DNA of 64,000 nt from Maridesulfovibrio sp. (GTDB taxonomy: Bacteria; Desulfobacterota; Desulfovibrionia; Desulfovibrionales; Desulfovibrionaceae). The position numbers and the translations under genes are program-made. Below are positions 47,961 through 63,953 of this stretch, in pieces. Numbering within the stretch: the first letter of the stretch is position 1; each line of letters begins with the position of its first letter. The notes under the pieces are model-generated. The model saw nothing but the letters and a program-made list of their open reading frames with translations, had not been told where the DNA came from and did not search any database. The DNA is taken from the NCBI RefSeq assembly GCF_963678865.1, contig NZ_OY787459.1:3464501-3528500 (forward strand), written 5' to 3'.

Positions 47961-49331
47961 TTATTCGTTGGAGAAGATCTGGAAACCGTTGTAGGACTCC
48001 ATGCCGTGTTCGCTGATGTCGAGGCCTTTCATTTCTTCTTCCGCGGTAACCCTGACGCCCATTACAGCCTTGGCGATGCTGAAAGCAAGGTAGCCCATGC
48101 CGAATGCCCAGACAAAGCAGACTGCGATACCGATGATCTGAGGGATAAGCAGTGCGAACCCGCCGCCGTAGAAGAGGCCGCCTGCGCCATCGTTAAGTGC
48201 GGGAGAGGTGAACAGTCCGCAAGCCAGAGTTCCCCAGGCACCGCATACACCGTGTACGGAGACAGCACCGACCGGGTCGTCGATTTTGAGTATTTTATCA
48301 ATGAATTCGATAGAGAGAACTACCAGTATACCTGCAATGAGACCGATGATGATGGAAGCTGCAGGGGTTACAGTTGCACAGGGAGCGGTGATACCTACCA
48401 GGCCTGCCAGCGCGCCGTTACAGGTCATGGAGATATCAGGCTTGCCGTATTTGAACCATGAGGTGAACATTGCGCCGAGGGTACCTGCACATGCAGAGAG
48501 GCTTGTGGTCACAGCGATGAGACCGATGGAGCCGTCAGCAGTGGTGGTGGAGCCGGGGTTAAAACCGAACCAGCCGAACCAGAGGATGAAAACACCGAGG
48601 GATGCCAGCGGAATGTTGTGACCGGGGATAGCTTTTGCTTTGCCGTCAGCAGTGTATTTGCCGATACGGGGGCCGAGGATCATGGCACCGGCCAGTGCAA
48701 TCCAGCCACCTACGGAGTGAACAACAGTGGAGCCTGCGAAGTCCATGAAACCGAGGCCTTCAAGCCAGCCGGCGCCGGAGTCGCCGAGCCAGAGGGAGCC
48801 CCATGCCCAGTGACCGGAGACAGGATAGATAAGCCCGGTAACAAGACAGGTTACGAGAATATAGCTGCTGAATTTAGTACGCTCGGCAATACCGCCGGAT
48901 ACGATTGTGGCTGCGGTGGCTGCGAATACAGACTGGAAGAACCAGAAAGTAATAGTCCACTGAGCGTCGGGATCGGTAAGTCCGGTTCCGGCAAGTGAGA
49001 ACCCGGTGGTTCCAACGAACCCGCCGGCGTCTATGCCGAACATAAGGCCGAATCCTAAAAGGAAAAAGATGATTGACCCGGCTGCAAAGTCGAGAAAGTT
49101 TTTCATCAGGATGTTACCTGCACTCTTGGCACGGGTGAATCCTGCTTCAACGCATGCAAATCCTGCCTGCATAAAAAATACGAGGATAGCCGCGAGAAGG
49201 GTCCAGAGAATGTTGGCGTGAGTCTGGGACATGGCTTCTTCAGCTGCGAAAGCTGCGGAAGGTGCCGCCAGGAGCATGAGAGTTGCGAGGGCCGGAATTT
49301 TGCGGCCTACCATTGAACGTTTAATAGTCAT
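47961..49331 (-). CDS. amtB: Ammonium transporter
   Basis: 456 residues from ATG 49331, with AAGGAGG six bases upstream. A cleavable signal peptide (LMLLAAPSAAFA) precedes eleven membrane helices, as usual for AmtB. Family phrases include FFMQAGFACVEAGF, FAGSTVVHSVGGW, LWFGWFGFNPGS and GVCGAWGTLACGLF, with the pore histidines in them. It forms a trimeric channel for ammonium in the inner membrane, inhibited by the PII protein encoded next. Confidence 0.96.
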   Translation of the reverse strand: MTIKRSMVGRKIPALATLMLLAAPSAAFAAEEAMSQTHANILWTLLAAILVFFMQAGFACVEAGFTRAKSAGNILMKNFLDFAAGSIIFFLLGFGLMFGIDAGGFVGTTGFSLAGTGLTDPDAQWTITFWFFQSVFAATAATIVSGGIAERTKFSSYILVTCLVTGLIYPVSGHWAWGSLWLGDSGAGWLEGLGFMDFAGSTVVHSVGGWIALAGAMILGPRIGKYTADGKAKAIPGHNIPLASLGVFILWFGWFGFNPGSTTTADGSIGLIAVTTSLSACAGTLGAMFTSWFKYGKPDISMTCNGALAGLVGITAPCATVTPAASIIIGLIAGILVVLSIEFIDKILKIDDPVGAVSVHGVCGAWGTLACGLFTSPALNDGAGGLFYGGGFALLIPQIIGIAVCFVWAFGMGYLAFSIAKAVMGVRVTAEEEMKGLDISEHGMESYNGFQIFSNE

Positions 49332-49378
49332 ACAGTCCTCCTTAGGGGTGTTGATTGCTTCAAGGATGTTTTTCCTAA

Positions 49379-49395
49379 AGCATGGACCGTGCCAA
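49379..49395 (-). promoter_or_regulatory. Sigma-54 promoter of amtB-glnB
   Basis: TTGGCACGGTCCATGCT on the minus strand carries the invariant GG and GC of the -24/-12 element with ten bases between them. It lies 48 bases before the amtB start. It implies nitrogen control through RpoN and an enhancer-binding activator. Confidence 0.85.
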
Positions 49396-49603
49396 AAGTT
49401 TAACATACTGAAATAGCTGTGTTTTTTTTAATTAACTCAAAAATGTGGATTACAAAAATGTATTTTTGAACTTTTTTGTCGTATTGAGGTGTGGTGTAAA
49501 TTACAAAAAGGTAAAGTTTGATTTTTCAAGAATCGTATGGCGTGGGGTGAAATTACAAATGGTTCATATTATATTAATGATGATAAAAAAATAAATAAAG
49601 TTG

Positions 49604-49633
49604 TTGACATTTTTTTCGGGACGCGGTTAGTAA
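49604..49633 (+). promoter_or_regulatory. Promoter of the aromatic attenuator leader
   Basis: TTGACA (49604-49609) with TAGTAA (49628-49633) after 18 bases. The start point would fall near 49640, the A of the leader ATG, so the leader may be translated as a leaderless message. An additional upstream promoter (TATTAT near 49568) is possible. Confidence 0.6.
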
Positions 49634-49639
49634 ATAGTC

Positions 49640-49750
49640 ATGCAAACTTTCAACACCCTTGGCGCTAGCCGTTCATACTTTTTTTACTTTTTTTATTTTT
49701 GGTGCTCCCACGCTTGTGGTCGGGTGGAGGTTTGCTTGTACAAAAAGTAA
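49640..49750 (+). CDS. Aromatic leader peptide (36 residues)
   Basis: ATG 49640 opens a frame of 36 codons ending at TAA 49748. Codons 13-21 (49676-49702) encode Y-F-F-Y-F-F-Y-F-W, nine aromatic residues in a row comprising three Tyr, five Phe and one Trp. The frame sits 31 bases before a strong terminator upstream of the aro-trp genes. It is the sensor part of an attenuator: starvation for any aromatic tRNA would stall the ribosome here. No Shine-Dalgarno is obvious. The T-rich codons could arise by chance in an AT-rich leader, but TGG closing the run and the downstream structures argue against it. Confidence 0.75.
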   Translation: MQTFNTLGASRSYFFYFFYFWCSHACGRVEVCLYKK

Positions 49751-49820
49751 AAAGAGAACATAGCAAACGACCTCTACGAAAGGGCCGCAGGCGAAGAATC
49801 GCCGGCGGCCCTTTTTTTTT
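49711..49820 (+). terminator. Attenuator: terminator and competing antiterminator
   Basis: The terminator is GGGCCGC/GCGGCCC plus GGCGA/TCGCC (49782-49811) with nine T (49812-49820). The competing helix pairs 49711-49721 (CGCTTGTGGTC) with 49783-49793 (GGCCGCAGGCG), 11 pairs counting three G-U, and removes the terminator 5' arm. A hairpin at 49727-49774 nests inside the antiterminator loop. A ribosome stalled at codons 13-21 leaves 49711-49721 free; a ribosome reaching the stop covers it and the terminator forms. Confidence 0.75.
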
Positions 49821-49883
49821 ACGGGTCGCCAAAAAGGGAAGCGGATCTTGGAGAACTAGAGGCAAACTTCAGGAGAAATTAAA

Positions 49884-50681
49884 ATGCAGATCGGAAAAAG
49901 CGTAAGAATGGAGCGGATCATTAACCGCAATACAGGCCGGACTATTGTTGTTCCCATGGACCACGGTGTCAGCGTCGGCCCGTTGAAAGGACTTCGTTCA
50001 ATGCGGCGGGCTGTTAACGATATGGTCAAAGGCGGAGCCAATGCCGTGCTCATGCATAAAGGCCTTGTCCGCTGCTCCCATCGTGAAGAAGGCGGCGATA
50101 TCGGTCTCATCGTTCATCTCTCCGCCTCAACCTGTCTTTCCCCCCTCCCTAATAAAAAAACTCTAGTCGGTACTGTTGAAGATGCACTTCGTCTCGGTGC
50201 AGATGCTGTTTCCGTTCATGTCAATCTTGGCGACGAAGCCGAATCCCAGATGCTTTCCGATCTCGGTGAAGTTGCATCCTCTGCTACCAACTGGGGTGTT
50301 CCGGTGCTGGCTATGGTTTACGCCCGCGGCCCGAAAGTCAAAGACGAATTTGATCCCGAAGTCGTGGCCCTCTGCGCCCGCGCAGGCGAAGAACTGGGTG
50401 CTGATATTGTAAAAGTCCCTTACACCGGCGACATTGAATCTTTCAAAACCGTAGTCGAAGGCTGCTGTATTCCGGTTGTTATTGCCGGAGGACCCAAGCT
50501 CGATTCCACCCGCGATTTTCTGCAGATGGTTTCCGATTCCATTGAAGCTGGCGGTGCCGGTCTTTCTGTCGGCCGTAATGTTTTTCAGCATGAAAACCGC
50601 GTTAAGTTGATGGAAGCCCTGCACATGATTGTTCACAATGATGAAACTGTAGATACCGCTCTCGCGCATATCGGCGAATAG
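49884..50681 (+). CDS. 2-amino-3,7-dideoxy-D-threo-hept-6-ulosonate (ADH) synthase
   Basis: 265 residues with AGGAG before ATG 49884. It belongs to the class I fructose-bisphosphate aldolase family (VPMDHGVSVGP, VLMHKGL, IVKVPYTGD with the Schiff-base Lys region, VIAGGPKLDS). In the archaeal-type pathway it condenses 6-deoxy-5-ketofructose 1-phosphate with aspartate semialdehyde, replacing DAHP synthase. The pairing with 3-dehydroquinate synthase II immediately downstream supports this function over aldolase. It is the first gene behind the attenuator. Confidence 0.92.
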   Translation: MQIGKSVRMERIINRNTGRTIVVPMDHGVSVGPLKGLRSMRRAVNDMVKGGANAVLMHKGLVRCSHREEGGDIGLIVHLSASTCLSPLPNKKTLVGTVEDALRLGADAVSVHVNLGDEAESQMLSDLGEVASSATNWGVPVLAMVYARGPKVKDEFDPEVVALCARAGEELGADIVKVPYTGDIESFKTVVEGCCIPVVIAGGPKLDSTRDFLQMVSDSIEAGGAGLSVGRNVFQHENRVKLMEALHMIVHNDETVDTALAHIGE

Positions 50682-50701: not shown

Positions 50702-51685
50702 ATGAAAAAAATTATTTTTAAAGCGATCCCTTTCGATAAAAAACTGGTCAGTCTTGCTCTGGAGTCCGGTGTGGATGCAATCCTCACCTCACCTGAAGAT
50801 AAGGAAACCATCGAATCCCTTGGGCGCGTAACAGTAATCACTCCCGATGACATGCCGTGCGTAGCCATTAACGAAAAGGCTGATGAAGCTGTCGCTGTTG
50901 ATCTTGACAAAAAAGGCAAAGATGTCTGCCTTGCCGCCGGCTGGGAAATTATCCCGGTCGAAAACCTGCTGGCCCAGATTGATGCCCTTGCTCTCGAAGC
51001 CGAGTCGCTTGAACGGGCTCGGTTGGCTGCCAGTGTAATGGAACGCGGTGCCGATTCAATCGTGGTTACTCCCGAAGGTGCCGCAGATCTTAAACAAATC
51101 GTAGCTGAACTGAAACTCTCGCAGGGCAAGATGGATTTACAAAAAGCAACAGTCACCAAGATTGAATCCGCAGGGCTGGCCCACCGGGTCTGCGTGGATA
51201 CCACTTCCAAGCTCAAGAAGGGGCAGGGCATTCTGACCGGAAATTCTTCAGCCTTTACCTTTCTCGTGCATGCTGAAACTGAATCCAACCCGTACGTTGC
51301 TGCGCGTCCGTTTCGAGTGAATGCCGGAGCTGTCCATGCTTACGCTATCCAGCCCGGTGATAAGACCATTTATCTCGAAGAGCTGCGTTCCGGTTCCGAG
51401 GTGCTGGTCGTGGATAAAAGCGGAGAGACTTCTGTGGCTGTGGTCGGACGCAGCAAGCTTGAAGTGCGACCCATGCTGCTGATTACCGCCGAGGTCCAGA
51501 CTCCCGAGGGACCGATTTCCGGCAAGGTTTTCCTCCAGAATGCGGAAACCATCAGAGTTGTCAGCGGTGCCGGTGAGCCTGTCAGTGTGGTAACACTGAA
51601 AGAAGGCGATGAAGTTCTTTGCCGTATTGATGAAGCGGGACGCCATTTCGGAATGCGAATCAAAGAAGAAATTTCAGAGGATTAA
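50702..51685 (+). CDS. 3-dehydroquinate synthase II
   Basis: 327 residues with the archaeal-type sequence (MKKIIFKAIPFDK, ERGADSIVVTPEG, GLAHRVCVDTTSKLKKGQG, RPFRVNAGAVHAYA). It oxidatively deaminates and cyclises ADH to 3-dehydroquinate using NAD. It is unrelated to the usual AroB. It lies 20 bases after the ADH synthase gene and the two together form the alternative entry to the shikimate pathway known from methanogens and Desulfovibrio. Confidence 0.94.
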   Translation: MKKIIFKAIPFDKKLVSLALESGVDAILTSPEDKETIESLGRVTVITPDDMPCVAINEKADEAVAVDLDKKGKDVCLAAGWEIIPVENLLAQIDALALEAESLERARLAASVMERGADSIVVTPEGAADLKQIVAELKLSQGKMDLQKATVTKIESAGLAHRVCVDTTSKLKKGQGILTGNSSAFTFLVHAETESNPYVAARPFRVNAGAVHAYAIQPGDKTIYLEELRSGSEVLVVDKSGETSVAVVGRSKLEVRPMLLITAEVQTPEGPISGKVFLQNAETIRVVSGAGEPVSVVTLKEGDEVLCRIDEAGRHFGMRIKEEISED

Positions 51686-51692
51686 TAATAAA

Positions 51693-52796
51693 ATGTCACA
51701 GTCCAGCACAAAAAATCTTGGCGATCTGCGGGTGGAAATCGATTCCCTCGACAGTGAGATTCTTGAGCTTCTCAACAAGCGTGCCGCTGCATCTCTGGCA
51801 GTCGGAGCAATCAAGGCCGGATCATCTGATCAGATTTTCAAGCCTTTCCGGGAACAGGAAGTACTGCGCGGCCTTATCAAGCGCAATCCCGGAACTCTCC
51901 CGCCTGAGCACCTTGAAGCAATTTATCGCGAAATTATTTCTTCTTCCCGCAGGCTGCAAAGGCCTGAGCGTGTGGTCTATCTAGGCCCCGAAGGGACATT
52001 TTCATATTTTGCCGGACTGCAGCATATGGGGCGTCAGGCCGACCTGATTCCCAAGAATAATTTTGAGAATATTTTTGTGGCCGTTTCCAAGGGCGAAGCC
52101 GATCTCGGCATTATCCCCCTTGAAAATTCGCTCAAGGGAACGGTCGGGCAGAACGTTGATCTCTTCATGCGTTACCCGGTTTTCATTCAGGCCGAGCTGT
52201 ATCATCGCATCAGCCACGGACTGATGACCAAGGGTACCGACATCAGCGAGATCAAAACGGTCTACTCACACTCCAAGGCACTTGAGCAATGCACAGGGTG
52301 GTTGCGTGCCAACATGCCCGGTGCAGAGCTCGTGTCTGTGGAATCAACTGCCAAGGCCGCTCAGATGGTTGCTGAAAACGATGGTCCTATAGCCGCAGTT
52401 GGTCACGTAAAGCTCGCAAATCTCTTCGGCCTGCATGTTGCTGCCGAAGCCATTGAGGATCTGCCCGATAACTGGACCAGATTCTTGATCATCGGCCCCA
52501 GACCCGGACAGGAAGATAAGCGCGACAAGACTTCGCTGCTGTTCACCACCCCGGACAGACCCGGTGCGCTGGTGGAAGTTCTCAACGAGCTTTCCGGTCA
52601 TGATATCAACATGACCAAGCTGGAGTCTCGGCCCGCTCTCGGCGAGAAGTGGAAGTACATGTTTTTTGTCGACCTGCAGGGCGATCTTGGAGCCGATGAA
52701 CATGCATCATTAATTGAAGACCTCAAGGGTCGCTGCCTTACTTTTAAAATACTTGGCTGCTATCCGGCTGGCGCACAGGACGGCAGCAAGTTTTAA
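51693..52796 (+). CDS. pheA: Chorismate mutase / prephenate dehydratase
   Basis: 367 residues from ATG 51693; an upstream frame overlaps the previous gene. The N-terminal AroQ chorismate mutase (about 1-90, RVEIDSLDSEILELLNKRA) leads into prephenate dehydratase (about 95-275, VVYLGPEGTFSYFA, PLENSLKGTVGQNVDL, DNWTRFLIIG) and an ACT domain (about 290-360) with GALVE and ESRP, the Phe-binding motifs. It makes phenylpyruvate and should be feedback-inhibited by Phe. It lies seven bases after the previous stop. Confidence 0.95.
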   Translation: MSQSSTKNLGDLRVEIDSLDSEILELLNKRAAASLAVGAIKAGSSDQIFKPFREQEVLRGLIKRNPGTLPPEHLEAIYREIISSSRRLQRPERVVYLGPEGTFSYFAGLQHMGRQADLIPKNNFENIFVAVSKGEADLGIIPLENSLKGTVGQNVDLFMRYPVFIQAELYHRISHGLMTKGTDISEIKTVYSHSKALEQCTGWLRANMPGAELVSVESTAKAAQMVAENDGPIAAVGHVKLANLFGLHVAAEAIEDLPDNWTRFLIIGPRPGQEDKRDKTSLLFTTPDRPGALVEVLNELSGHDINMTKLESRPALGEKWKYMFFVDLQGDLGADEHASLIEDLKGRCLTFKILGCYPAGAQDGSKF

Positions 52797-52939: not shown

Positions 52940-54274
52940 ATGACTTCTGAGAATGTAATTGTAATTAAAGCTCCATCTTCTAAATCCCTGTCTCACAGGG
53001 CTTTGATCGCCGGGGCTTTGTCCGAAGGGAATACTGTTGTTCTCGATCCTCTGGACAGTAATGACATCAACCGGACTATGGATTGCCTTGCCACCATGGG
53101 AGCCAAGTTCAATATTGACGGCACAGCAACCACTGTTACCGGAATGGACGGAGGACCCAAGGGCGGCGAGAAGGAACCTGCTATTCTGGAAATGCGTGAT
53201 TCCGGCACTACCTGTCGTTTAATCACTGCTCTTGCCGGAGCCGGCAAAGGCCTTTTCCGGGTGCAGGGAACCCCGCGCATGCATGACCGTCCCATCGGGG
53301 CTTTGACCAGCGCGCTGGAATCACAGGGAACCAAGGTTACTTTTTCCGACAAAGAGGGTTATCCGCCGGTGACTCTTGAAGCGGGCGGCTTCAAAGGTAA
53401 GGAAATGGATATCTCTCTTGAGGAATCCAGTCAGTATATTTCCGGTCTGCTTCTCGGAGCCCCGCTGGCTGACGAGACTACTATAATTAATGTAGTGGGA
53501 AAAAAAGCAGTATCATGGCCTTACGTTGCCCTGACTTTGAACGTCATGGAAGATTTCAGAATCAAGTTTCAAGTCCAGATCAGAAAAAACGGTATGTGGA
53601 AAAAGACCGATTGGAGAAAAGTCGAAAAGGTCGTTCCTGGTGAAATCCGTTTTGTGGTCGAACCTTCAAAGTTCGAGCGTGACGAATACAGGGTGGAAGG
53701 AGATTGGTCCAACGCTTCCTATTTCCTTGCTGCCGGAGCTGTAGGTAACAATCCTGTTAAGATTGACGGAATGAACGTAAATTCCCTTCAGGGTGACAAG
53801 GCAATCATGTACATCCTTGAATCAATGGGGGCAAAAATTGAGAGTGACGAACACAGCGTAACAGTGTACCCTTCCAATCTTCACGGTGTGGAAGTGGATA
53901 TGAGTAAATGTCCTGATCTCGTCCCCACTGTGGCAATGGTCGCCGCTTTTGCGGACAGCCCTACCACGATCACCAATGTGGCCCACCTGCGTATCAAGGA
54001 ATGTGACCGCTTGGAAGCCAGTGCTGCCGAGGTCATGCGTGCGGGCGGTAAGGCTGAGATCACAGATGATTCCATCACCATATTCCCGGCACCGCTCAAG
54101 AAAGGTGAACGTATTGTCTTCACTACCTATGATGATCACCGCCTTGCCATGTGTACTGCTATTTTTGCTCTGGCAGGCATTGAATCAATCCCCGAAGAGC
54201 CGGGCTGTGTAGCCAAATCCTTCCCCGGTTTCTGGGATGAATGGGAAAAAGTTAAAAAAGGAAATGGTTGTTAG
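52940..54274 (+). CDS. aroA: EPSP synthase (3-phosphoshikimate 1-carboxyvinyltransferase)
   Basis: 444 residues. Motifs: APSSKSLSHRALIAGALSEG, MRDSGTTCRLI, RIKECDRLEASAAEV and DDHRLAM. It joins phosphoenolpyruvate to shikimate 3-phosphate. The substrate Lys in the N-terminal motif is present. A gap of 143 bases before it contains no clear gene. Confidence 0.96.
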   Translation: MTSENVIVIKAPSSKSLSHRALIAGALSEGNTVVLDPLDSNDINRTMDCLATMGAKFNIDGTATTVTGMDGGPKGGEKEPAILEMRDSGTTCRLITALAGAGKGLFRVQGTPRMHDRPIGALTSALESQGTKVTFSDKEGYPPVTLEAGGFKGKEMDISLEESSQYISGLLLGAPLADETTIINVVGKKAVSWPYVALTLNVMEDFRIKFQVQIRKNGMWKKTDWRKVEKVVPGEIRFVVEPSKFERDEYRVEGDWSNASYFLAAGAVGNNPVKIDGMNVNSLQGDKAIMYILESMGAKIESDEHSVTVYPSNLHGVEVDMSKCPDLVPTVAMVAAFADSPTTITNVAHLRIKECDRLEASAAEVMRAGGKAEITDDSITIFPAPLKKGERIVFTTYDDHRLAMCTAIFALAGIESIPEEPGCVAKSFPGFWDEWEKVKKGNGC

Positions 54275-54276
54275 TC

Positions 54277-55053
54277 ATGGAGTGCGAGTTTAATAAAATT
54301 CATAGCGTAGCCATCGTCGGGTCCCGTGGACAGATGGGGGGCTTCCTCGCGCTCACTGCCGAACGGGCAGGTATGATGGTCTACCGTTTTGACACGCCTC
54401 TTGATCAGGAAAAGATGGCCCGGCGTCTGCCGGATACCGATCTGGTGATCCTGTGCATCCCGGTAACAGTTATGGATGATGTTCTGCCCGTTGTTATTCC
54501 GCATATGAAAAAGGGCGCGATCCTTTCAGACGTGGGCTCGGTTAAAGGGCGTCCGGTTCAGCAGATGATCCGTGCCTACAATGGCCCTGTTGTGGGGACT
54601 CATCCTCTGTTCGGACCGGTGATTCCTACTGATTTCAACCCAACCGTGGCTCTTGTCGCTGAACGAGAAGAAGACCGTTCTGCTCTGCTGGCGGTAAAGG
54701 ACTTTTTTGAGCGTCTGAATTTCGGTGCTTTCGAGTCTTCCGTTGAGGAACACGACAAGGCTATGGCCATGATTCAGGCCCTGAATTTCAGTTCCACAAT
54801 TGCTTTTCTGGCCTGTTCACGGGAAATTCCCAATATCAAGAAATTTGTAACCCCGTCTTTCAAGCGCAGGCTTGAGTCCGCGCGCAAGATGGTCACTCAG
54901 GACAGCGATCTTTTCGGAACTATTACCGATGCAAATCAGTATAGTCAGGAAGCAACTCGCCTATTCCGTTCTTTTCTCTCCCTCGCAGCAGCAGGTGACA
55001 TGGATCTGCTTGCAGACCGTGCTTCTTGGTGGTGGCGTGAAAGTAATACCTAG
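54277..55053 (+). CDS. tyrA: Prephenate dehydrogenase
   Basis: 258 residues from ATG 54277; a TTG at 54268 overlapping aroA is possible and has AAGGAAA nearby. The nucleotide-binding VAIVGSRGQMGGFLA, DVGSVKGRPVQQM and GTHPLFGP (with the catalytic His) identify the family. It oxidises prephenate to 4-hydroxyphenylpyruvate for Tyr. No ACT domain is attached. A terminator follows. Confidence 0.92.
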   Translation: MECEFNKIHSVAIVGSRGQMGGFLALTAERAGMMVYRFDTPLDQEKMARRLPDTDLVILCIPVTVMDDVLPVVIPHMKKGAILSDVGSVKGRPVQQMIRAYNGPVVGTHPLFGPVIPTDFNPTVALVAEREEDRSALLAVKDFFERLNFGAFESSVEEHDKAMAMIQALNFSSTIAFLACSREIPNIKKFVTPSFKRRLESARKMVTQDSDLFGTITDANQYSQEATRLFRSFLSLAAAGDMDLLADRASWWWRESNT

Positions 55054-55078
55054 GGAGAAGTGCATCTAAAAAAGATAA

Positions 55079-55113
55079 GACCGCGTTCTCCCGGAACGCG
55101 GTCTTTTTTTTTG
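55079..55113 (+). terminator. Strong terminator between tyrA and trpE
   Basis: GACCGCGTTC and GAACGCGGTC form a ten-bp stem with a short loop, followed by nine T. It splits the aromatic block into an aro half and a trp half unless read through. A possible extended -10 (TGCTATAAA, 55138-55146) lies after it. Confidence 0.9.
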
Positions 55114-55211: not shown

Positions 55212-56627
55212 ATGAAGATTGAACTTACCCAGTATGGCAAATGGTTGCCTGCTGATACGCAGACCCCGATCAGCCTGTATCTCGGGCTTGTGGGCGATGC
55301 TCCGGGTATTCTATTGGAAAGTGCTGAAGTTGATGGCAGGCTGGGGCGTTACAGTCTGATTGCCTGGGATTTCAGGCTCAAGCTATCGCCTGTGCGCGGC
55401 AAGCTGTCCGTGGAGTGTGCTGACTCAAGGTTGGCCGGACTGGCGAGCTATTCGGGAATGGATTTTCTGGATGGTATGCGTGCAGTCATGAAAGCCCTGC
55501 ATTTGAAGGCCCAGCCAGAAGTTGGCGATCTGCCTGCCCTTACCCGTGGGCTTTACGGCACATTGGGATACGGAATAGCCGGCATGCTGGAGCCTAAGTT
55601 GAAAGACAAGCTGCCCGCTGATGACGCAGAGGTCCGTTTGGCCCTGCCCGGTAGGGTGGTTCTGTTTGATCATCTCAAGCACAGTTGTTGCTTTCTGTCT
55701 CTGGATAAAGATGATGCCCCTGAGTTTACTCCTCCTGTTTTCGGTGCAACCTGTGAACCAACCAAGGTTGGTGATCCTGTTGCCGTGCCGGGTAAGGAAA
55801 AATATATGGAAGGGGTTAAAAAGGTGAAGGAACTCATTGCCGAGGGTGAGTGCATTCAGGTGGTTCTTTCCACCCGTTTTTCCGCTCCTTTCAGTGGAGA
55901 TTCCTTTGATCTGTACCGTCGCTTGCGGCAGGCCAACCCCTCTCCATTCATGTTTTACATGAAGTTCAGCCGGGAGGAAATCCTGCTCGGTTCTTCCCCG
56001 GAATTGATGGCCCGCTGCGATAAGGGAAGGCTGGAAGTACGGCCCATCGCCGGAACCCGTCCACGCGGCAAGGATGCTGCCGGAGACCGCAAGTTTGCTG
56101 AAGAGTTGCTTGCAGACCCCAAGGAAATTGCCGAACACGTAATGCTTGTTGATCTCGGTAGGAACGACCTTGGACGTATTGCCAAGGCAGGTTCCGTGAG
56201 CGTGGAAAAGTTCAAGCAGATCGAATACTTCAGCCATGTCATGCACATCACTTCCTATGTGGAGGCGGATCTGCGTGATGATCATGATGCCATCGACGTG
56301 CTGCAGTCCACTTTCCCGGCCGGGACTCTTTCCGGTGCCCCGAAGATCAGGGCCATGGAAATCATCGCCGAAATTGAAGAAGTCCCGCGCGGGCCATACG
56401 GCGGCTGCATAGGGTTTATCGGTCTGGACAAGGATTCCGTTAATCTTGATACCGGAATCACCATCCGCTCCATGTGGATTCGTGACGGAAAGTGCCATTG
56501 GCAGGCCGGGGCCGGAATCGTGTATGATTCTGATCCTGAAATGGAATGGAAAGAATGTAACAACAAGGCAAGGGTGCTTAAGGAAATCCTGCAGTCGGAG
56601 GGCGGTGATGTTTTTACTCGTGGATAA
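55212..56627 (+). CDS. trpE: Anthranilate synthase component I
   Basis: 471 residues from ATG 55212 with CGGAG upstream. The N-terminal regulatory motif LLES (residues 34-37) is the Trp-binding site, so feedback inhibition is likely. The catalytic half carries PIAGTRPRGKD, EHVMLVDLGRNDLG and FPAGTLSGAPK. It converts chorismate to anthranilate with the TrpG amidotransferase. Its last 20 bases overlap trpG. Confidence 0.96.
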   Translation: MKIELTQYGKWLPADTQTPISLYLGLVGDAPGILLESAEVDGRLGRYSLIAWDFRLKLSPVRGKLSVECADSRLAGLASYSGMDFLDGMRAVMKALHLKAQPEVGDLPALTRGLYGTLGYGIAGMLEPKLKDKLPADDAEVRLALPGRVVLFDHLKHSCCFLSLDKDDAPEFTPPVFGATCEPTKVGDPVAVPGKEKYMEGVKKVKELIAEGECIQVVLSTRFSAPFSGDSFDLYRRLRQANPSPFMFYMKFSREEILLGSSPELMARCDKGRLEVRPIAGTRPRGKDAAGDRKFAEELLADPKEIAEHVMLVDLGRNDLGRIAKAGSVSVEKFKQIEYFSHVMHITSYVEADLRDDHDAIDVLQSTFPAGTLSGAPKIRAMEIIAEIEEVPRGPYGGCIGFIGLDKDSVNLDTGITIRSMWIRDGKCHWQAGAGIVYDSDPEMEWKECNNKARVLKEILQSEGGDVFTRG

Positions 56628-57180
56628 TTTTGATTCGTTTACTTTCAATCTGGTGCAGGCGTTCCAGCAGTTGGGAGCCGACCCGCTGGTGCTGCGTAAT
56701 GACCGTGAGGAAATCCTCGAGTTGGCCGAATCCGGCAAGCTGGAGCGGGTCTGCCTCTCTCCCGGACCGAGCAACCCGGAGAATGCAGGTTATTCCCTTG
56801 AGTTCCTTTCTCGGCTTCCCAAAGAAATCCCGGTACTGGGGGTCTGCCTCGGACACCAGACCTTAGGTCATTTTGCAGGGGCTTCCGTGGTCCGGGCCGG
56901 ACGGATAATGCACGGCAAGACTTCGGATGTTTACCATAACGGTGATGGCCTTTTTACTGGATTGGACAATCCGTTCAATGTCTGCCGTTACCACTCTCTG
57001 GTGGTAAACGTAGATGAAGCTCCTGATAAGCTGGAGCTGACTGCATGGACCGATCAGGATGAGGTCATGGGCTTGCGTTACAAAGACCGCCCATGGACAG
57101 GGGTGCAGTTTCATCCCGAGTCTATTCTGACTCCTGATGGACCGAAATTGCTTGAGAATTTTTTGGACGGTAATATTTAA
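56608..57180 (+). CDS. trpG: Anthranilate synthase component II (glutamine amidotransferase)
   Basis: 190 residues from ATG 56608, inside the end of trpE, with GGAGGG upstream. Class I amidotransferase motifs: LLVDNFDSFTFN, GVCLGHQTLGHFAG with the nucleophile Cys, and GVQFHPES with the His-Glu pair. It supplies ammonia to TrpE. It is not fused to trpD. Confidence 0.96.
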   Translation: MFLLVDNFDSFTFNLVQAFQQLGADPLVLRNDREEILELAESGKLERVCLSPGPSNPENAGYSLEFLSRLPKEIPVLGVCLGHQTLGHFAGASVVRAGRIMHGKTSDVYHNGDGLFTGLDNPFNVCRYHSLVVNVDEAPDKLELTAWTDQDEVMGLRYKDRPWTGVQFHPESILTPDGPKLLENFLDGNI

Positions 57181-57211
57181 CTCTATCATCAATATATAGA
57201 AGGAAATACAC

Positions 57212-58201
57212 ATGTCACAGATAATAAGCGAAGCCCTGACTGCTCTGTGTGCAGGTCAGGACCTTACAACAGAACTGGCAGATGCTGTTTTTGAGGAACT
57301 TTTTTCCGGAGAAATGACTCATGCTCAGGCGGGCGCATTGCTCATGGGGTTGCGCAGTAAGGGCGAAAAGGCTGTGGAAGTAGCAGCGGGAGTTCGTGCG
57401 GCTTTGCGTGAAGCCAAGCTTATCAAGGGTATCAACAGTCCATGTATTGATACCTGCGGCACCGGCGGTGACGGGACCAACAGCTTTAACTGCTCAACAG
57501 CAGTGGCTCTTTATCTTGCGGATATGGGCTATCTGGTTACCAAGCACGGCAACCGGGCTGTATCTTCTTCCTGCGGTTCAGCTGATGTTCTTGAAGATCT
57601 GGGCGTTTCGCTGGGCACGACTGTAAACGAAGCACGTGATGTGTTGATTGAGAATAAATTTGTGTTCCTGTTTGCCCCCAATTACCATCCGGCCTTTGGA
57701 AAAATTGCTCCAATCCGTAAGGAATTGGGAATTCCTACCCTGTTTAACCTCATGGGCCCCCTGTTGAACCCCGCCCGTCCCACCCATCAGATATTAGGCG
57801 TGGGCAGGCCGGAGATTATGCGCCTTATGGCAGAAGTACTGGCTTTGACCAATGTGGAGAAGGCTTACGTTGTGCATGGGGCTGGCAATTTTGACGAATT
57901 GACCCCGTTCGGTGTGAACGATGCCATTTTGGTGGAGAACGGTGAACTGACTGAAGTTAAGATTGATCCTGCTGATTATGGATTTGCAACAGCCAAGCCT
58001 GAAGATGTGGCGGTGCAGAACCGAGCAGAGGCTCTGGCAGCTATCCGTAAGGTTCTGGCCGGGCAGGCTCCGCAAGCCATGCTTGATATGGTGGCACTTA
58101 ACCTCGGCGCGTCCATATCCATCATGGATGGTATCTCTTTAGAAGAAGGCATGGAAAAAGCGAAGAGCAAGGTCGCCATGGGCGTGGACAAGGAATACTA
58201 G
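57212..58201 (+). CDS. trpD: Anthranilate phosphoribosyltransferase
   Basis: 329 residues. [17 protein letters not shown] is the phosphoribosyl-pyrophosphate-binding signature, followed by [18 protein letters not shown]. It transfers phosphoribose to anthranilate. It lies 31 bases after trpG and three before trpC. Confidence 0.96.
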
Positions 58202-58204
58202 GCC

Positions 58205-58984
58205 ATGCTGGATAAATTCAGAAAAGCAAAACAGGCCGAGCTGGATATGCTCCAGCAGATGCAGGAAGAGGGAAAAAAGTTTACTCCTTACGCCGGTAAA
58301 CGTCTTTCTTTTGCCGATGCAATCCGCCGTGACGATTCCGGGCTGAAGGTCATTGCCGAGTATAAGCGTGCTTCTCCTTCAAAGGGTGACATCAATCTGG
58401 GTTTAAGTGCTGCGGATGTTGCCGGAATGTATGCTGCCGGAGGAGCTTCGGCTATTTCCGTGCTCACCGAAGAGGAGTACTTCAAAGGAAATCTGGGTTA
58501 TCTTGATGAGATCAAACCCAGCGGACTTCCTATGCTGCGCAAGGATTTCCTGACCGATCTGATGCAGGTTGAGCAGACCTTGGCAACTCCGGCTTCAGCT
58601 TTGCTGATCATCGTCCGTATGTTCGAGGATGACGGTTACCTTAAAGAAATGATCGAGAGCACTCATGCCGCAGGGCTGGATGCAGTAGTTGAAGCTTTTG
58701 ATGAAGCTGATCTTATCCGGGCAAAGAAAGCCGGTGCGAAGATTATCCAGATCAACAACCGCGATCTCGATACCCTTGGCATCGACATGAACCGTTCAAT
58801 TGAATTCATCAAGCAGAAGGACGAAGGTGAGATTTGGATCTGCGCCAGCGGAATCAGCGAACCGGAAGACTGCTCACAGATGAATGGCCTTGGGTATGAT
58901 ACTGTGCTCATCGGAACCTCCATCATGTCCAGTCCGGACCCGCAGGCCAAACTTGCAGCTCTGGTTGCTGGAGGTAAATCATGA
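58205..58984 (+). CDS. trpC: Indole-3-glycerol-phosphate synthase
   Basis: 259 residues, a TIM barrel with VIAEYKRASPSKGDI, LRKDFLTDLMQV and QINNRDLDTLGID, the conserved substrate-binding strands. It closes the indole ring. Its stop overlaps the trpF start as ATGA, so the two are translationally coupled. Confidence 0.96.
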   Translation: MLDKFRKAKQAELDMLQQMQEEGKKFTPYAGKRLSFADAIRRDDSGLKVIAEYKRASPSKGDINLGLSAADVAGMYAAGGASAISVLTEEEYFKGNLGYLDEIKPSGLPMLRKDFLTDLMQVEQTLATPASALLIIVRMFEDDGYLKEMIESTHAAGLDAVVEAFDEADLIRAKKAGAKIIQINNRDLDTLGIDMNRSIEFIKQKDEGEIWICASGISEPEDCSQMNGLGYDTVLIGTSIMSSPDPQAKLAALVAGGKS

Positions 58985-59598
58985 GCCTGCTGGTCAAGGT
59001 TTGCGGGATGACATCTGCAGAAGATGCAGCCATGTGTGAAGAGCAGGACGTTGATTTTCTGGGGTTCATCTTTCACCCTTCCAGTCCGCGCAATGTGGAT
59101 ACGGATTTTGCCCGATCAATTAAGCCTGCTTCAGCAAAGAAAGTCGGCGTATTTGTCAAGCAGAGTGCGGCGCAAGTGATTGAGACCTTGAAAAACGGCG
59201 ATCTTGATTTTGCCCAATTGCACGGCGGGCAGAATGAAGAATTCTGCAAGGCCGTGGGCAGGGAACGGGTTATCAAAGTCTTCTGGCCCCAGAAATACGA
59301 TTCGGTAAAAGAGTTGCAGGCGGAGATTGACCGCTTCGCTCCACACTGTACCTACATGCTTTTTGATGCTGGAAAGTCCGGCGGAGGACATGGTGTTTCC
59401 ATGGAATTCGATGTCTTTAAAGATGTTACTATTCCGGTTCCATGGCTTTTGGCGGGAGGCCTTTCCGCCGATAATTTAAAAGAGGCACTGGACACAGCCA
59501 AACCGTACGGGGTTGATCTTAATTCCGGCGTTGAGTCTGAACCGGGTAGAAAAGATAAAGATAAATTGAGGGAGGCCCTTGCGGTCATAACTCAATAA
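58981..59598 (+). CDS. trpF: Phosphoribosylanthranilate isomerase
   Basis: 205 residues. VKVCGMTSAEDA carries the catalytic Cys, and FLGFIFHPSSPRNV, LFDAGKSGGGHG and GVDLNSGVESEPGRKD complete the family pattern. It overlaps trpC by four bases. The gap to trpB holds a repeat. Confidence 0.95.
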   Translation: MSLLVKVCGMTSAEDAAMCEEQDVDFLGFIFHPSSPRNVDTDFARSIKPASAKKVGVFVKQSAAQVIETLKNGDLDFAQLHGGQNEEFCKAVGRERVIKVFWPQKYDSVKELQAEIDRFAPHCTYMLFDAGKSGGGHGVSMEFDVFKDVTIPVPWLLAGGLSADNLKEALDTAKPYGVDLNSGVESEPGRKDKDKLREALAVITQ

Positions 59599-59639
59599 AA
59601 TAGTTAACCTCAGCTTCGACCGTCCAGCCCAATGATGCC

Positions 59640-59745
59640 CTGTCATAGAATCGGCGAAGCCCCAATAAAAGTTTTTGGGATTCTTAAACCCATTTTTACA
59701 AAAAGGGTTTAAAGCCCCCGGCAGGGCCGCCGGAGGCATCCCATA
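59640..59745. repeat. Intergenic repeat between trpF and trpB
   Basis: GGCGAAGCCCCAATAAAAG, TTTGGGATTCTTAAACCC, a short A/T-rich middle with AAAAAGGGTTTAA, then CCCGGCAGGGCCGCCGGAGGC. It matches the element at 17702-17787 nearly base for base outside the middle. It can fold through AAACCC/GGGTTT. Confidence 0.8.
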
Positions 59746-59762
59746 TAAAAAAGGAAAAGATC

Positions 59763-60941
59763 ATGAAAAGAGGATACTTTGGAGATTATGGCGGACAGTT
59801 TGTACCTGAACTGCTCATGCCGCCGCTGCTCGAGCTTGAAGAGGCCATGGAAAAGATTATGAAGTCAGACGAATTCCAGCAGGAATTCACCCGTCTGCTC
59901 AAAGATTTCGTAGGCCGCCCCACCGCGCTGACCCATTGCGCTAATATCTCCCGCGAACTGGGTTTCAACCTTTGGCTCAAGCGTGAAGACCTCGCCCATA
60001 CCGGAGCGCATAAGGTCAATAACACTGTCGGTCAGGCTCTGTTGACCAAGATGATGGGTAAACCCATGCTGCTGGCTGAAACAGGTGCCGGACAGCACGG
60101 AGTTGCCACCGCAACCGCTGCGGCCCTGCTCGATCTTGACTGTGAAATCTATATGGGCGCACTGGATGTGAAACGTCAGTCTCACAACGTTCGGCGTATG
60201 GAGCTTCTTGGTGCCAAGTGCGTACCTGTAGAATCAGGTACTCAGACCTTGAAGGACGCAATCAATGCCGCCCTGCGTAAATGGATTGCCGACCAACGGA
60301 CCACGCATTACTGCTTCGGTACTGCTGCCGGCCCGCATCCTTTTCCGCTGCTGGTGCGTGAATTTCAGGCAATTATAGGCCGTGAAGCCAAGGCCCAGTT
60401 CAAGGAAAAAACCGGAGAGCTGCCTTACATGGTAGTAGCCTGTGTTGGTGGTGGTTCCAATGCCATCGGCATGTTCCACGAATTTGTACAGGAAGAGTCG
60501 GTCAAAATTGTAGGTGTCGAGGCTGCTGGAACCGGTGAACCGGGCTGCACCAACTCTGCACCTATCAATCTCGGGACTCCCGGTGTGCTGCACGGGATGA
60601 ACACCTTGCTGCTCCAGACCGATGAAGGCCAGATCATGCCATCCCATTCCATCGCTCCCGGTCTTGATTATCCCGGTGTAGGTCCCGAACACGTGCATCT
60701 GCACGCAACCGGCCGCGCCCAGTACGGAACCGTAAATGACCATCAGGCCTTGAAGGCATTCCAGATGCTTTGCCGTAAGGAAGGCATTCTGCCCGCGCTG
60801 GAAAGTTCCCACGCTGTGGCTTGGGTGCTTGAGAACCGGGATTCCATACCCAAAGACGCCAACGTCATAGTCAACCTGTCCGGTCGCGGCGACAAGGACA
60901 TGGGCATTCTCGAAGATTATCTCGCCGAGCACGGAAAATAG
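59763..60941 (+). CDS. trpB: Tryptophan synthase beta chain
   Basis: 392 residues. HTGAHKVNN holds the pyridoxal-phosphate Lys (residue 84), ETGAGQHGVATA and CVGGGSNAIGMF bind substrate and cofactor phosphate. It condenses indole with serine. Length and N-terminus (GYFGDYGGQFVPE) fit the TrpB1 type that pairs with TrpA. Confidence 0.97.
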   Translation: MKRGYFGDYGGQFVPELLMPPLLELEEAMEKIMKSDEFQQEFTRLLKDFVGRPTALTHCANISRELGFNLWLKREDLAHTGAHKVNNTVGQALLTKMMGKPMLLAETGAGQHGVATATAAALLDLDCEIYMGALDVKRQSHNVRRMELLGAKCVPVESGTQTLKDAINAALRKWIADQRTTHYCFGTAAGPHPFPLLVREFQAIIGREAKAQFKEKTGELPYMVVACVGGGSNAIGMFHEFVQEESVKIVGVEAAGTGEPGCTNSAPINLGTPGVLHGMNTLLLQTDEGQIMPSHSIAPGLDYPGVGPEHVHLHATGRAQYGTVNDHQALKAFQMLCRKEGILPALESSHAVAWVLENRDSIPKDANVIVNLSGRGDKDMGILEDYLAEHGK

Positions 60942-61065
60942 CAGGCTGTTGAAAAACGGCGATCTGCGTCGTTGTTTCAAAAAGTTCAAATCCTCACGTA
61001 CGGGGAGTACGCTTCGGTCTTGAACTTTTTTCGCGCCTAGCATCTCACCATTTTTGAACAGCCTG
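60942..61065. repeat. Palindromic MITE-like element between trpB and trpA
   Basis: Outer ends CAGGCTGTT(G)AAAAA and TTTTTGAACAGCCTG are inverted repeats. The centre has AAAAAGTTCAA and TTGAACTTTTT around CACGTACGGGGAGTACG. With about 124 bases, no reading frame and terminal inverted repeats, it looks like a nonautonomous mobile element. It starts one base after the trpB stop. It may form a terminator-like structure within the operon. Confidence 0.7.
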
Positions 61066-61104
61066 TGTGTTGGTTTTTTAACAGGCTAATGAAGGAAATC
61101 TAAA

Positions 61105-61875
61105 ATGAGTATTACCAAACTTGCAGATAAAATTAATGAGGCTAAGTCACAGGGACGTATCGGACTGATTCCGTTTCTTCCCGGCGGATATCCCAACCGT
61201 GAGCAGTTCTGGAAGGAAATTCTTGAGCTTGATGAAAACGGTGCCGACGTTATTGAGATCGGTATGCCTTTTTCCGATCCCGTAGCAGACGGCCCTGTAG
61301 TTGAGGCTGCATCGCTCAAATGCCTTGAAGACGGCATCAATCTGAAATGGATTCTTGCAGGACTTTCTGAACACCGGGCAAAAATCAGCGCCGGGGTGCT
61401 GCTTATGGGATACTATAATCCGGTACTGCAGTATGGATTGGAAAACTTTGCCAAGGATGCCTGTGCGGCCGGGGTTAACGGGTTGATCATTGCCGACCTG
61501 CCGTATGAGGAAGGAGTGGAATTTCGCGATCTGCTCGCCAAGTATGACATAGCGCTCATCCCGCTGGTAGGGCTGAATACCGAACCGGAACGCATGGGAC
61601 TTTATGCCAAGGGCGGCAACGGTTTCTGCTACTACGTCTCAGTTCTCGGCACCACAGGGGACCGTGATTCCCTGCCCGAAGAAGTAAAAGATGGTCTCGC
61701 CAAGGCGCAGGATGTTTTTAATATTCCTGTTGCTCTCGGTTTCGGTCTCAAGGAACCTTCCCAGCTCAAGGAACTGGAAGGGCTGGTCGATGCAGCTGTC
61801 TTTGGGTCCGCGCTGATCCGGCATATTGATTCCGGGAAAAGTTCTGCGGAATTTATGAAGGTCTGGAAGAAATAG
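61105..61875 (+). CDS. trpA: Tryptophan synthase alpha chain
   Basis: 256 residues. DVIEIGMPFSDPVADGP carries the catalytic Glu, IADLPYEE the catalytic Asp. It cleaves indoleglycerol phosphate to indole for TrpB. A GAAGGAA ribosome site lies before ATG 61105. A hairpin terminator follows. Confidence 0.96.
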   Translation: MSITKLADKINEAKSQGRIGLIPFLPGGYPNREQFWKEILELDENGADVIEIGMPFSDPVADGPVVEAASLKCLEDGINLKWILAGLSEHRAKISAGVLLMGYYNPVLQYGLENFAKDACAAGVNGLIIADLPYEEGVEFRDLLAKYDIALIPLVGLNTEPERMGLYAKGGNGFCYYVSVLGTTGDRDSLPEEVKDGLAKAQDVFNIPVALGFGLKEPSQLKELEGLVDAAVFGSALIRHIDSGKSSAEFMKVWKK

Positions 61876-61946: not shown

Positions 61947-62609
61947 TTATGAAATCGGTTTGAGCTTTTTGATAAACTCTATGAGTTCGGGAAGTTCTGT
62001 CATGGGGTTGGTAAGTGGTTTGTGGGATTTAATTTGGGTTGCGTAGGGAAGTTTGGCTGAAATGTTTAACTTTTTGTCATGCTCAATAGCCTTGTCCATG
62101 TTTAGACAGAATATTTCAGCTTCTTTTTTACTTCGGGGCATTGGTTTTTCATACTCAGGAAATATTGCTTTTAGCTGCCGTTCGGAGTCACTAGCGTTTT
62201 TGCATGCATATATTTTGTCGCAAAAATGTAAGGTGTACCAGATTTCTATTGCCGGGTAGTTATAGAAAACAGCCCATTTACTTTTTTCTCTTTTCATTTT
62301 TCCGAGCTTCGTTACCTGATCCAGTTCAGCTTTAAGGTTGTTTATTTGAGTTTGTGAAAGCTGAGTATTTTCCAAGTCGCGTAAGAAAAGGACCGCATCG
62401 AAAGTTTTCGGGTCGCGGTCCATATAACGTAGAGCCTGATCTACACGTGTAAAAGTTTTAGGGGTGATTACTACCGGATTCTCTTTGGATGAAAGACACT
62501 CGTTGAGAACAAACTTGGCGTAGTTTTGTTCAGTCTGTCCGTCACATGCTAGTAGAACGTTAATTTTCTTCCTGCGTAGAGAGCTGCCTGATTTTTTGGG
62601 GCGGGCCAT
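61947..62609 (-). CDS. RloB-like protein (AbiL-type pair, second gene)
   Basis: 220 residues. INVLLACDGQTEQNYAKFV near the N-terminus, FDAVLFLRDLENTQ and the late KWAVFYNYPAIEIWYTLHF match the RloB family, a TOPRIM-like fold with an acidic site. RloB proteins pair with AAA ATPases in defence modules, and AbiLii of Lactococcus has this domain as I recall. The start overlaps the stop of the ATPase gene as TAATG, so the two are coupled. A phage-defence role is inferred. Confidence 0.8.
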   Translation of the reverse strand: MARPKKSGSSLRRKKINVLLACDGQTEQNYAKFVLNECLSSKENPVVITPKTFTRVDQALRYMDRDPKTFDAVLFLRDLENTQLSQTQINNLKAELDQVTKLGKMKREKSKWAVFYNYPAIEIWYTLHFCDKIYACKNASDSERQLKAIFPEYEKPMPRSKKEAEIFCLNMDKAIEHDKKLNISAKLPYATQIKSHKPLTNPMTELPELIEFIKKLKPIS

Positions 62610-63895: not shown

Positions 63896-63953
63896 ATTTA
63901 ATCCCATGGTGTATTTTTTGGGTGAAAATCTCACATTGGCAAATTCAATATAT

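Follow-up and report, generated by a model that had tools for sequence, protein, structure and literature searches.

A predicted attenuator with phenylalanine, tyrosine and tryptophan codons at the front of the aromatic amino acid operon of Maridesulfovibrio sp., and a putative tryptophan-only attenuator at tyrA-trpE

The aromatic amino acid operon of a Maridesulfovibrio sp. is very probably controlled by a ribosome-mediated attenuator of the classical proteobacterial type with a mixed Phe/Tyr/Trp sensor and a predicted leaderless transcript, joined downstream by a putative Trp-only attenuator at the tyrA-trpE junction. Comparison across the Desulfovibrionaceae supports the tri-aromatic front attenuator well. 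The parts of the switch, their conservation, their covariation, and the way in which the identity of the sensor codons follows gene context are read directly from the sequences. The mechanism is classical, while the combination appears to be a new one: a tri-aromatic attenuator stands in one operon with a structural gene whose tail seems to be its neighbor's leader peptide. The family also amounts to an experiment of nature: gene context appears to change which amino acid is sensed, and the RNA switch stays the same.

Materials and Methods

The window is the whole 64,000-nt stretch of DNA analyzed here, from Maridesulfovibrio sp. (GCF_963678865.1, NZ_OY787459.1, 3,464,501-3,528,500, forward strand). 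Coordinates are relative to the window, and features lie on its plus strand unless stated otherwise. We searched 199 genomes of the family Desulfovibrionaceae, at least 189 of which matched the first enzyme of the operon, 2-amino-3,7-dideoxy-D-threo-hept-6-ulosonate (ADH) synthase (ADHS). A phylum search of 395 genomes gave a first-enzyme match at 1e-60 in 121, and an extra scan of named genomes gave 49 loci. Regions were read around part of the matches (120 + 40 + 20 + 20), in addition to the loci returned by the searches.

The starting set comprised 112 loci, of which 98 were kept after leader and terminator filters. Nine had no leader by the cut-off (L191, L200, L206, L220, L222, L232, L238, L247, and L255), and five had no terminator by the finder (L229, L235, L243, L246, and L261). 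L200 and L220 were leaderless in this first set only through cut upstream DNA and were refetched as L346 and L347. The tree has 98 rows, with L191, L200, L206, L218, L220, L222, L224, L232, L238, L247, L249, and L262 excluded by hand. The 94-row front alignment (64 operon and 30 solo leaders) omits L209, L221, and L257, which have a weak terminator pick, as well as L218. A hand-chosen subset of 34 of these 94 sequences was used for the front helix and terminator tests.

Three loci fit neither the operon nor the solo class: L262 and L249, which are Phe-only, and L224, in which ADHS lies directly before trpE and the leader has all three aromatics. Further loci without aroB' in short DNA were kept out of the 33 solo leaders: L334, L335, and L339 have a Phe-only leader, and L348 has one with Phe and Tyr; in L338 a W follows the run; L366 has W and lies next to a divergent trpE; the leader of L344/L359 was too weak; and L324 has tandem ADHS genes.

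The front leader and its alternative folds

A preliminary description, made from the letters of the window, proposed a 36-codon leader with nine consecutive aromatic codons, a strong terminator before the operon, and an 11-bp alternative pairing, and all three were borne out. The leader ORF (49640-49750, 36 codons plus stop, probably leaderless) translates to MQTFNTLGASRSYFFYFFYFWCSHACGRVEVCLYKK followed by the stop. Its codons 13-21 (49676-49702) form the sensor YFFYFFYFW, which contains a single Trp codon. No ORF with nine consecutive aromatics arose in 5,000 dinucleotide shuffles of 49600-49883, where the maximum was six. For the 212-nt leader, the folding energy is -73.2 kcal/mol (z -4.36), lower than in any of 200 shuffles. 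Folded from the run onward, the RNA forms the terminator stem 49778-49815, which overlaps a tract of nine T (49812-49820) to complete the front terminator (49778-49820). When the terminator 3' arm is removed, region 2 (49711-49721, the antiterminator 5' arm) pairs instead with region 3 (49783-49793), which serves as the antiterminator 3' arm and also belongs to the terminator 5' arm; an inner stem, stacked under this helix, joins 49724-49739 to 49758-49777. Directly 3' of the run lies a short hairpin, CCAC-GCUU-GUGG (49708-49719), the putative region 1:2 protector. The leader thus contains a short ORF with a cluster of end-product codons, a terminator before the first gene, and an exclusive antiterminator with evolutionary support.

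By eye, the front terminator stem contains a mismatch, and the match to a -10 element is poor; scanning 49300-50000 with a simple consensus gave no terminator, and the TTGACA at 49604 was not picked up as part of a promoter. The upstream gene, presumably ammonium-transporter-like by resemblance, is divergent, so a plus-strand terminator at this position could act only on the operon's own leader transcript.

A leader this strongly structured could also be read as a metabolite- or protein-sensing element (riboswitch, T-box, or TRAP-like) with an incidental ORF. We consider this hardly credible, because no Rfam family reached its gathering score in 17 loci, and both the distance to the start codon and the aromatic run are conserved. 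Membership in the Rfam Phe_leader family (RF01859), the best match in the window, was rejected at 29.4 bits (E 0.019) against a gathering score of 55.

Pairing and covariation of the front switch

We evaluated the antiterminator by comparing its pairing with that of rearranged sequences. Across 94 family sequences, 94.4% of the cells of 49711-49721:49783-49793 are paired, versus 90.8% when whole 3' arms are swapped between sequences (sd 0.37, maximum 92.1%). Among the 34 hand-chosen rows, 95.7% of cells are paired, a value reached by 0/500 shuffles, and 14 cells are changed on both sides versus 2.8 in shuffled data (0/500). Slid partners of region 2 pair at only 37-44% in the same rows. The pair 49715:49789 is T-A in 28, C-G in 25, T-G in 7, and A-T in 4 of the 64 operon rows, with zero mismatches. 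Position 49789 has no partner in the predicted terminator fold, so this pattern is not a by-product of the terminator. The homologous terminator stem is 99.7% paired in the 34 rows. Conservation and covariation in relatives had been named in the preliminary description as its check, with a lack of conservation as grounds for refutation. The run and the pairing are conserved in relatives, so the description withstood this test, and the antiterminator covaries across the family. Among genus members alone, the 2:3 helix does not vary, and the helices show no covariation excess.

The 1:2 hairpin is 82.9% paired in the 64 operon leaders versus 79.3% when shuffled (maximum 81.7%), and 2/500 shuffles were as high in the 34 rows. 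Its pair 49710:49717 is A-T in 24, G-C in 20, G-T in 6, and another combination in 14 of the operon leaders; the 30 solo leaders have no pairing excess over shuffles. In 57 of the 64 operon rows, the final aromatic codon has its end 6 or 9 nt upstream of 49712. This spacing fits a ribosome that, stalled there with the usual footprint, would cover region 1 and keep region 2 mostly accessible.

Transcript start and proposed mechanism

A TTGACA motif with at most one mismatch lies upstream of 89 of the 98 family leaders, and in 83 of those 89 its end is 29-33 nt from the start codon (29 nt in 5, 30 nt in 44, 31 nt in 24, 32 nt in 7, and 33 nt in 3). In the window, the 3' end of this -35 element (49604-49609) lies 30 nt before the leader AUG. 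Given the usual spacer and -10 element, this conserved spacing would put the 5' end of the leader mRNA on its own AUG or immediately beside it, here no more than a base or two from 49640. Of the 98 family leaders, 9 show an SD-like motif. Outside the family it is found in 53 of 82 leaders, so the leaderless form seems to be a family trait. According to the part of PMC7298713 available, a leaderless start has been shown by experiment for trpL of S. meliloti. The trpL-trpE(G) system likewise has a transcript from the leader AUG and no Trp-dependent repression; it differs in sensing Trp only and in that its start is experimental, whereas ours is predicted (PMC7298713, seen in part).

We infer stalling, the operation of both switches, and the response to each amino acid as follows. 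Transcription would begin on or beside the leader AUG, with no Shine-Dalgarno site used in translating the leader. When all three charged tRNAs are abundant, the ribosome would clear the run and cover or disrupt region 2, allowing region 3 to form the terminator. If any one aromatic aminoacyl-tRNA were short, the ribosome would stall in the run and mask region 1, region 2 would pair with region 3, and termination would be prevented. The front leader would then be an OR gate, in which a shortage of any aromatic admits RNA polymerase into the ADHS-aroB'-pheA-aroA-tyrA-trp operon, and the Trp-only attenuator at the tyrA end would decide whether polymerase continues into trpE. Questions thereby opened to experiment are how three inputs are integrated by a single leader, how one Trp codon competes with many Phe and Tyr codons, and how aromatic synthesis is controlled in sulfate reducers without a Trp repressor.

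Genes of the operon

Twelve genes follow the leader on the same strand: ADH synthase, aroB', pheA, aroA, tyrA, and trpEGDCFBA. The first is ADH synthase (49884-50681; TIGR01949, 390 bits, cut-off 299), followed by aroB', encoding 3-dehydroquinate synthase II (50702-51685; NF002628, 569 bits, cut-off 508), pheA, encoding chorismate mutase/prephenate dehydratase (51693-52796, start uncertain; NF008865, 238 bits, cut-off 219), and aroA (52940-54274; TIGR01356, 380 bits, cut-off 287). For tyrA (54268-55053, start uncertain), whose last codons seem to double as a Trp leader, the top matches are prephenate dehydrogenases, below cut-offs. The trp genes span 55212-61875 as ORFs, with trpE, trpD, trpC, trpB, and trpA placed by family matches, those of trpE and trpC below NCBIfam cut-offs; trpG and trpF we assume from resemblance and position. 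Downstream of the block, an ORF pair on the minus strand (61947-63934), which we take by resemblance to encode an RloB-like protein and an AAA ATPase, is a possible defence pair.

The genome also encodes the classical DAHP synthase/chorismate mutase fusion, followed by aroB (L271/L272, G000:C1:1713291-1714379, minus strand), and the fusion was found in 17/17 genus genomes searched. The operon is therefore not the sole entry to the pathway, and two routes to dehydroquinate seem to coexist. Upstream of the classical DAHP synthase gene here, we looked for an aromatic leader and found none. Tandem ADHS genes occur at the front of some operons: two copies are seen in L323 (= L200), L324, and L368, and they are probable in L213, L214, L219, and L220 from the aroB' distance or start position.

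A putative Trp attenuator at the end of tyrA

The preliminary description assigned the whole block to one attenuator, which is incomplete: a second, Trp-only attenuator seems to use tyrA's own 3' end as its leader. TyrA ends in RASWWWRESNT before the stop at 55051-55053, with the sensor TGG TGG TGG at 55027-55035. In the fold, 55019-55027 pairs with 55055-55063 as region 1:2, and a terminator stem (55078-55104) is followed by a T tract (55104-55112). With the 3' arm removed, the antiterminator forms between GGGAGAA (55053-55059) and UUCUCCC (55086-55092), extended by 55061-55063 with 55083-55085. The fold has a z of -3.78, and 0/200 shuffles were that low. Trp codons, an antiterminator, and a terminator are thus all found before trpE, with the tyrA end in place of a separate leader ORF.

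The arrangement recurs in relatives. Among 40 family loci with adjacent tyrA and trpE (25 plus 15 further genus genomes), 33 have WWW in the tyrA tail; before trpE, 30 of the 33 also have a hairpin of -16 kcal/mol or lower, the hairpin being weak in L213, L214, and L215. The seven loci without WWW have no strong hairpin in the tyrA-trpE gap either. We aligned only the 30 loci with both WWW and a strong hairpin, leaving out L213-L215 and the seven without WWW. In these rows, 2:3 is 85.8% paired versus 80.7% shuffled (maximum 84.5%), 1:2 is 75.6% paired versus 70.4% (maximum 74.8%), and the terminator is 92.7% paired versus 83.5% (maximum 86.8%). The 16 genus rows alone show no pairing excess for 2:3 or 1:2.

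Where trpE is detached from the operon, it tends to have a Trp leader of its own: an ORF with WW or WWW and a hairpin lie upstream in 12 of 13 cases (L370, L372-L377, and L379-L383), as in KGWWWRIQLRGGDVR, MFWWWRVSDVKGGVR, and GRWWQG. No WW/WWW leader was found upstream of the detached trpE in G001. Compared by eye, detached Trp leaders and TyrA tails share WWWR followed by GG and V (WWWRIQLRGGDVR; WWWRSHTERGGVR), suggesting that an ancestral trp leader was fused to tyrA. With an internal Trp attenuator present, trp expression probably depends on more than the front leader. The accessible part of a D. hydrothermalis study reports that the genes between and including an ADHS-like aldolase and trpF, ten in all, drop together at 26 versus 0.1 MPa, and that only trpE, G, and D of those ten also drop at 10 versus 0.1 MPa (PMC4162548). 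This pattern fits a mix of joint and separate control in that relative, although pressure is not amino acid supply.

Sensor codons follow gene context

The first set contained 67 family loci with aroB' adjoining the ADHS gene. A leader was visible in 65, and F, Y, and W occur in the best 14-residue window of all 65; the remaining two, whose upstream DNA had been cut, also have F, Y, and W once refetched. Another 30 operon copies came from further genomes; F, Y, and W are all present in 22, and eight have F and Y but no W (L350, L351, L352, L355, L356, L361, L364, and L365). In total, F and Y are present in 97/97 and W in 89/97 family operon leaders, counted as one copy per genome picked among the matches listed rather than drawn at random. 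The wider sampling thus rules out that every family operon leader has Trp codons, and the proposal that one leader carries codons for all three end products stands for Phe and Tyr throughout, with W missing in 8/97; that codon identity follows context speaks for it.

We next compared the presence of W with linkage to trpE, in a comparison that covers 59 of the 97 genomes. All 42 operon leaders with trpE shown downstream carry W (24 by local DNA, 16 genus genomes, and G032 and G038 by position). We searched for trpE in 19 further genomes, chosen for missing W or missing linked trp genes. Among those without W, four gave no trpE match at 1e-60 (G008, G003, G042, and G012, two of them less than 90% complete), and four have trpE elsewhere in the genome (G019, G049, G006, and G053). 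W is retained in nine genomes whose trpE lies elsewhere (G005, G089, G040, G102, G137, G162, G001, G026, and G056). These nine rule out that W in the front leader needs linked trp genes, and the tie between W and trp is a loose one, a tendency.

The order of the run varies within the genus (YFFYFFYFW, YFYYFYFW, FFYYFYFW), with F and Y interchanging, and the run persists across DNA of 44-72% GC in 65 operon leaders. Since the order varies and the run is kept at up to 72% GC, aromatic kind is conserved rather than a sequence. Trp codons lie nearest the 3' end of the run, at a mean of 2.2 codons from the end versus 4.9 for Phe and 4.3 for Tyr (65 leaders). This conservation of kind and not of residue order, with the rest of the leader tracking RNA pairing, makes it very unlikely that the ORF and terminator are a constitutive brake or the source of a trans-acting peptide or small RNA, even though peTrpL and rnTrpL do act in trans in S. 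meliloti (PMC7298713, available in part). The leader may have an extra role in trans alongside attenuation.

Stand-alone ADHS copies have differently coded leaders. At 40 loci, ADHS has no aroB', pheA, or trpE nearby; 35 of these have an aromatic leader by the cut-off, one of them (L206) probably spurious, and five have none. The solo leaders (L195, L204, L216, L230, L234-L268, and others) are Phe-dominated, such as ARFFFFFSFYFRNACG, or Tyr-dominated, such as GPYYYYGLRARG. Across the 98 tree rows, the run includes W in 65/65 operon leaders versus 1/33 solo leaders, a count that would be 2/33 had L245 not been scored W-negative by hand for having its W codons after the run, and for which a Fisher comparison ignores kinship and is not to be leaned on. 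The dominant residue makes up a mean share of 0.89 in solo versus 0.50 in operon leaders. Within a single genome, G061, the operon leader is SFSQYWYYWFSRACG and the solo leader is SFSRFFGFSRARG. The supported branches of the tree force at least four changes for the solo-Phe label and at least two for solo-Tyr. Four independent pairs go in the same direction in 3.5 cases on average and never in the opposite one, and are too few for significance.

These contrasts bear on whether the front attenuator effectively senses one amino acid, the other aromatic codons being filler from TTT/TAT interchange in T-rich sequence. The window leader has a lone Trp codon and a T-rich run, F and Y swap within the genus, and a separate Trp attenuator before trpE lessens the need for a Trp codon in front. 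Against this stand the presence of F and Y in every operon copy and of W in most, at up to 72% GC, the shift of solo copies to one dominant residue, and the contrast in G061; we regard single-amino-acid sensing as unlikely. A mixed sensor remains our preferred reading of the front leader.

The stand-alone ADHS copies are like isozymes of the first pathway step. E. coli has three DAHP synthase isozymes, AroF, AroG, and AroH, each tied to one aromatic amino acid. These are likewise separate first-step enzymes, differing in that the enzyme is another one and that control is by TyrR/TrpR instead of leader codons. On balance, we lean towards a broader view in which leader codons largely run the aromatic supply of the Desulfovibrionaceae, through the leaderless OR-gate front, the Trp leader fused to the TyrA end at the point of union of the aro and trp genes, re-coded isozyme leaders, and Phe-coded symporter and ligase leaders. 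As part of this joint reading, duplicated first-step enzymes would have been made Phe- or Tyr-specific by re-coding the same leader several times.

Relation to known leaders

Several amino acids in one leader are not new in kind: the E. coli ilvGMEDA, ilvBN, and thr leaders and the Rfam leu-phe leader have codons for several end products. These resemble the front leader in serving several end products and differ in that theirs are not the three aromatics, and we know of no context-linked re-coding among them. Candidate ilvB leaders of actinobacteria have Ile/Val/Leu codons (PMC1262725, seen in part). The trpL and pheL leaders of E. coli likewise combine a short ORF with regulatory codons and an exclusive antiterminator and terminator before a biosynthetic operon, as outlined in the available part of PMC1183508 and in general background; they differ in being dedicated to one amino acid each and in Shine-Dalgarno translation. 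The E. coli trp operon is also under TrpR, and since we found no Trp repressor homologue in this genome, we rejected TrpR control here.

The preliminary description knew of no account of this leader. We also found none of the peptide, but a putative attenuator for D. vulgaris aroA'>aroB'>aroQ-pheA>aroF>tyrA>[trp], taken from a web list, appeared in 2005 in Table 7 of PMC1173090. It has the same gene order and is very probably the homologous front element; the part of that article available gives no peptide, no codons, and no tyrA-trpE attenuator, and lacks the word "leader". The available parts of PMC545781 and PMC2965389 do not treat this leader. Titles and abstracts, in which subscription journals are thinly covered, yielded no Phe/Tyr/Trp leader or tyrA-borne Trp leader.

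Related leaders in the genome and beyond the family

A covariance model of the front post-run region scored the window element at 73.1 bits and found one other strong full-length site in the same genome, at 41.8 bits. This site (L293, G000:C1:4341100-4341195, minus strand) belongs to a Phe-only leader with the same architecture as the front one, and a small ORF and an SSS symporter gene follow it; by eye, a Phe-rich leader precedes a similar protein in six related genomes (L329-L333 and L345). A weak match (L297, G000:C1:1068493-1068571, plus strand; 23.1 bits, E 0.048) has the leader MINHIFFPFFFFFFFKTEI and a hairpin, and precedes a PaaK-like phenylacetate-CoA ligase (624 bits, cut-off 646), possibly reflecting Phe-controlled Phe synthesis from phenylacetate. 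Both L293 and L297 have TTGAC[A/G] at a spacing of 31-32 nt, by eye.

Beyond the main family set, we read 126 loci (L035-L080 and L110-L189), which include some contigs twice, some archaeal loci, and some truncated ones. The more distant ADHS loci among them (L171-L189) mostly showed no leader. An ORF with at least 6 aromatics in eleven, together with 60 nt of upstream DNA, is present in 82 of the 126. F and Y occur in all 82 and W in 50; a few of the 82 are probably chance ORFs. More than 12 kb downstream was available for 27: the two with trp genes both have W, and of the 25 without, 16 have W and nine have none.
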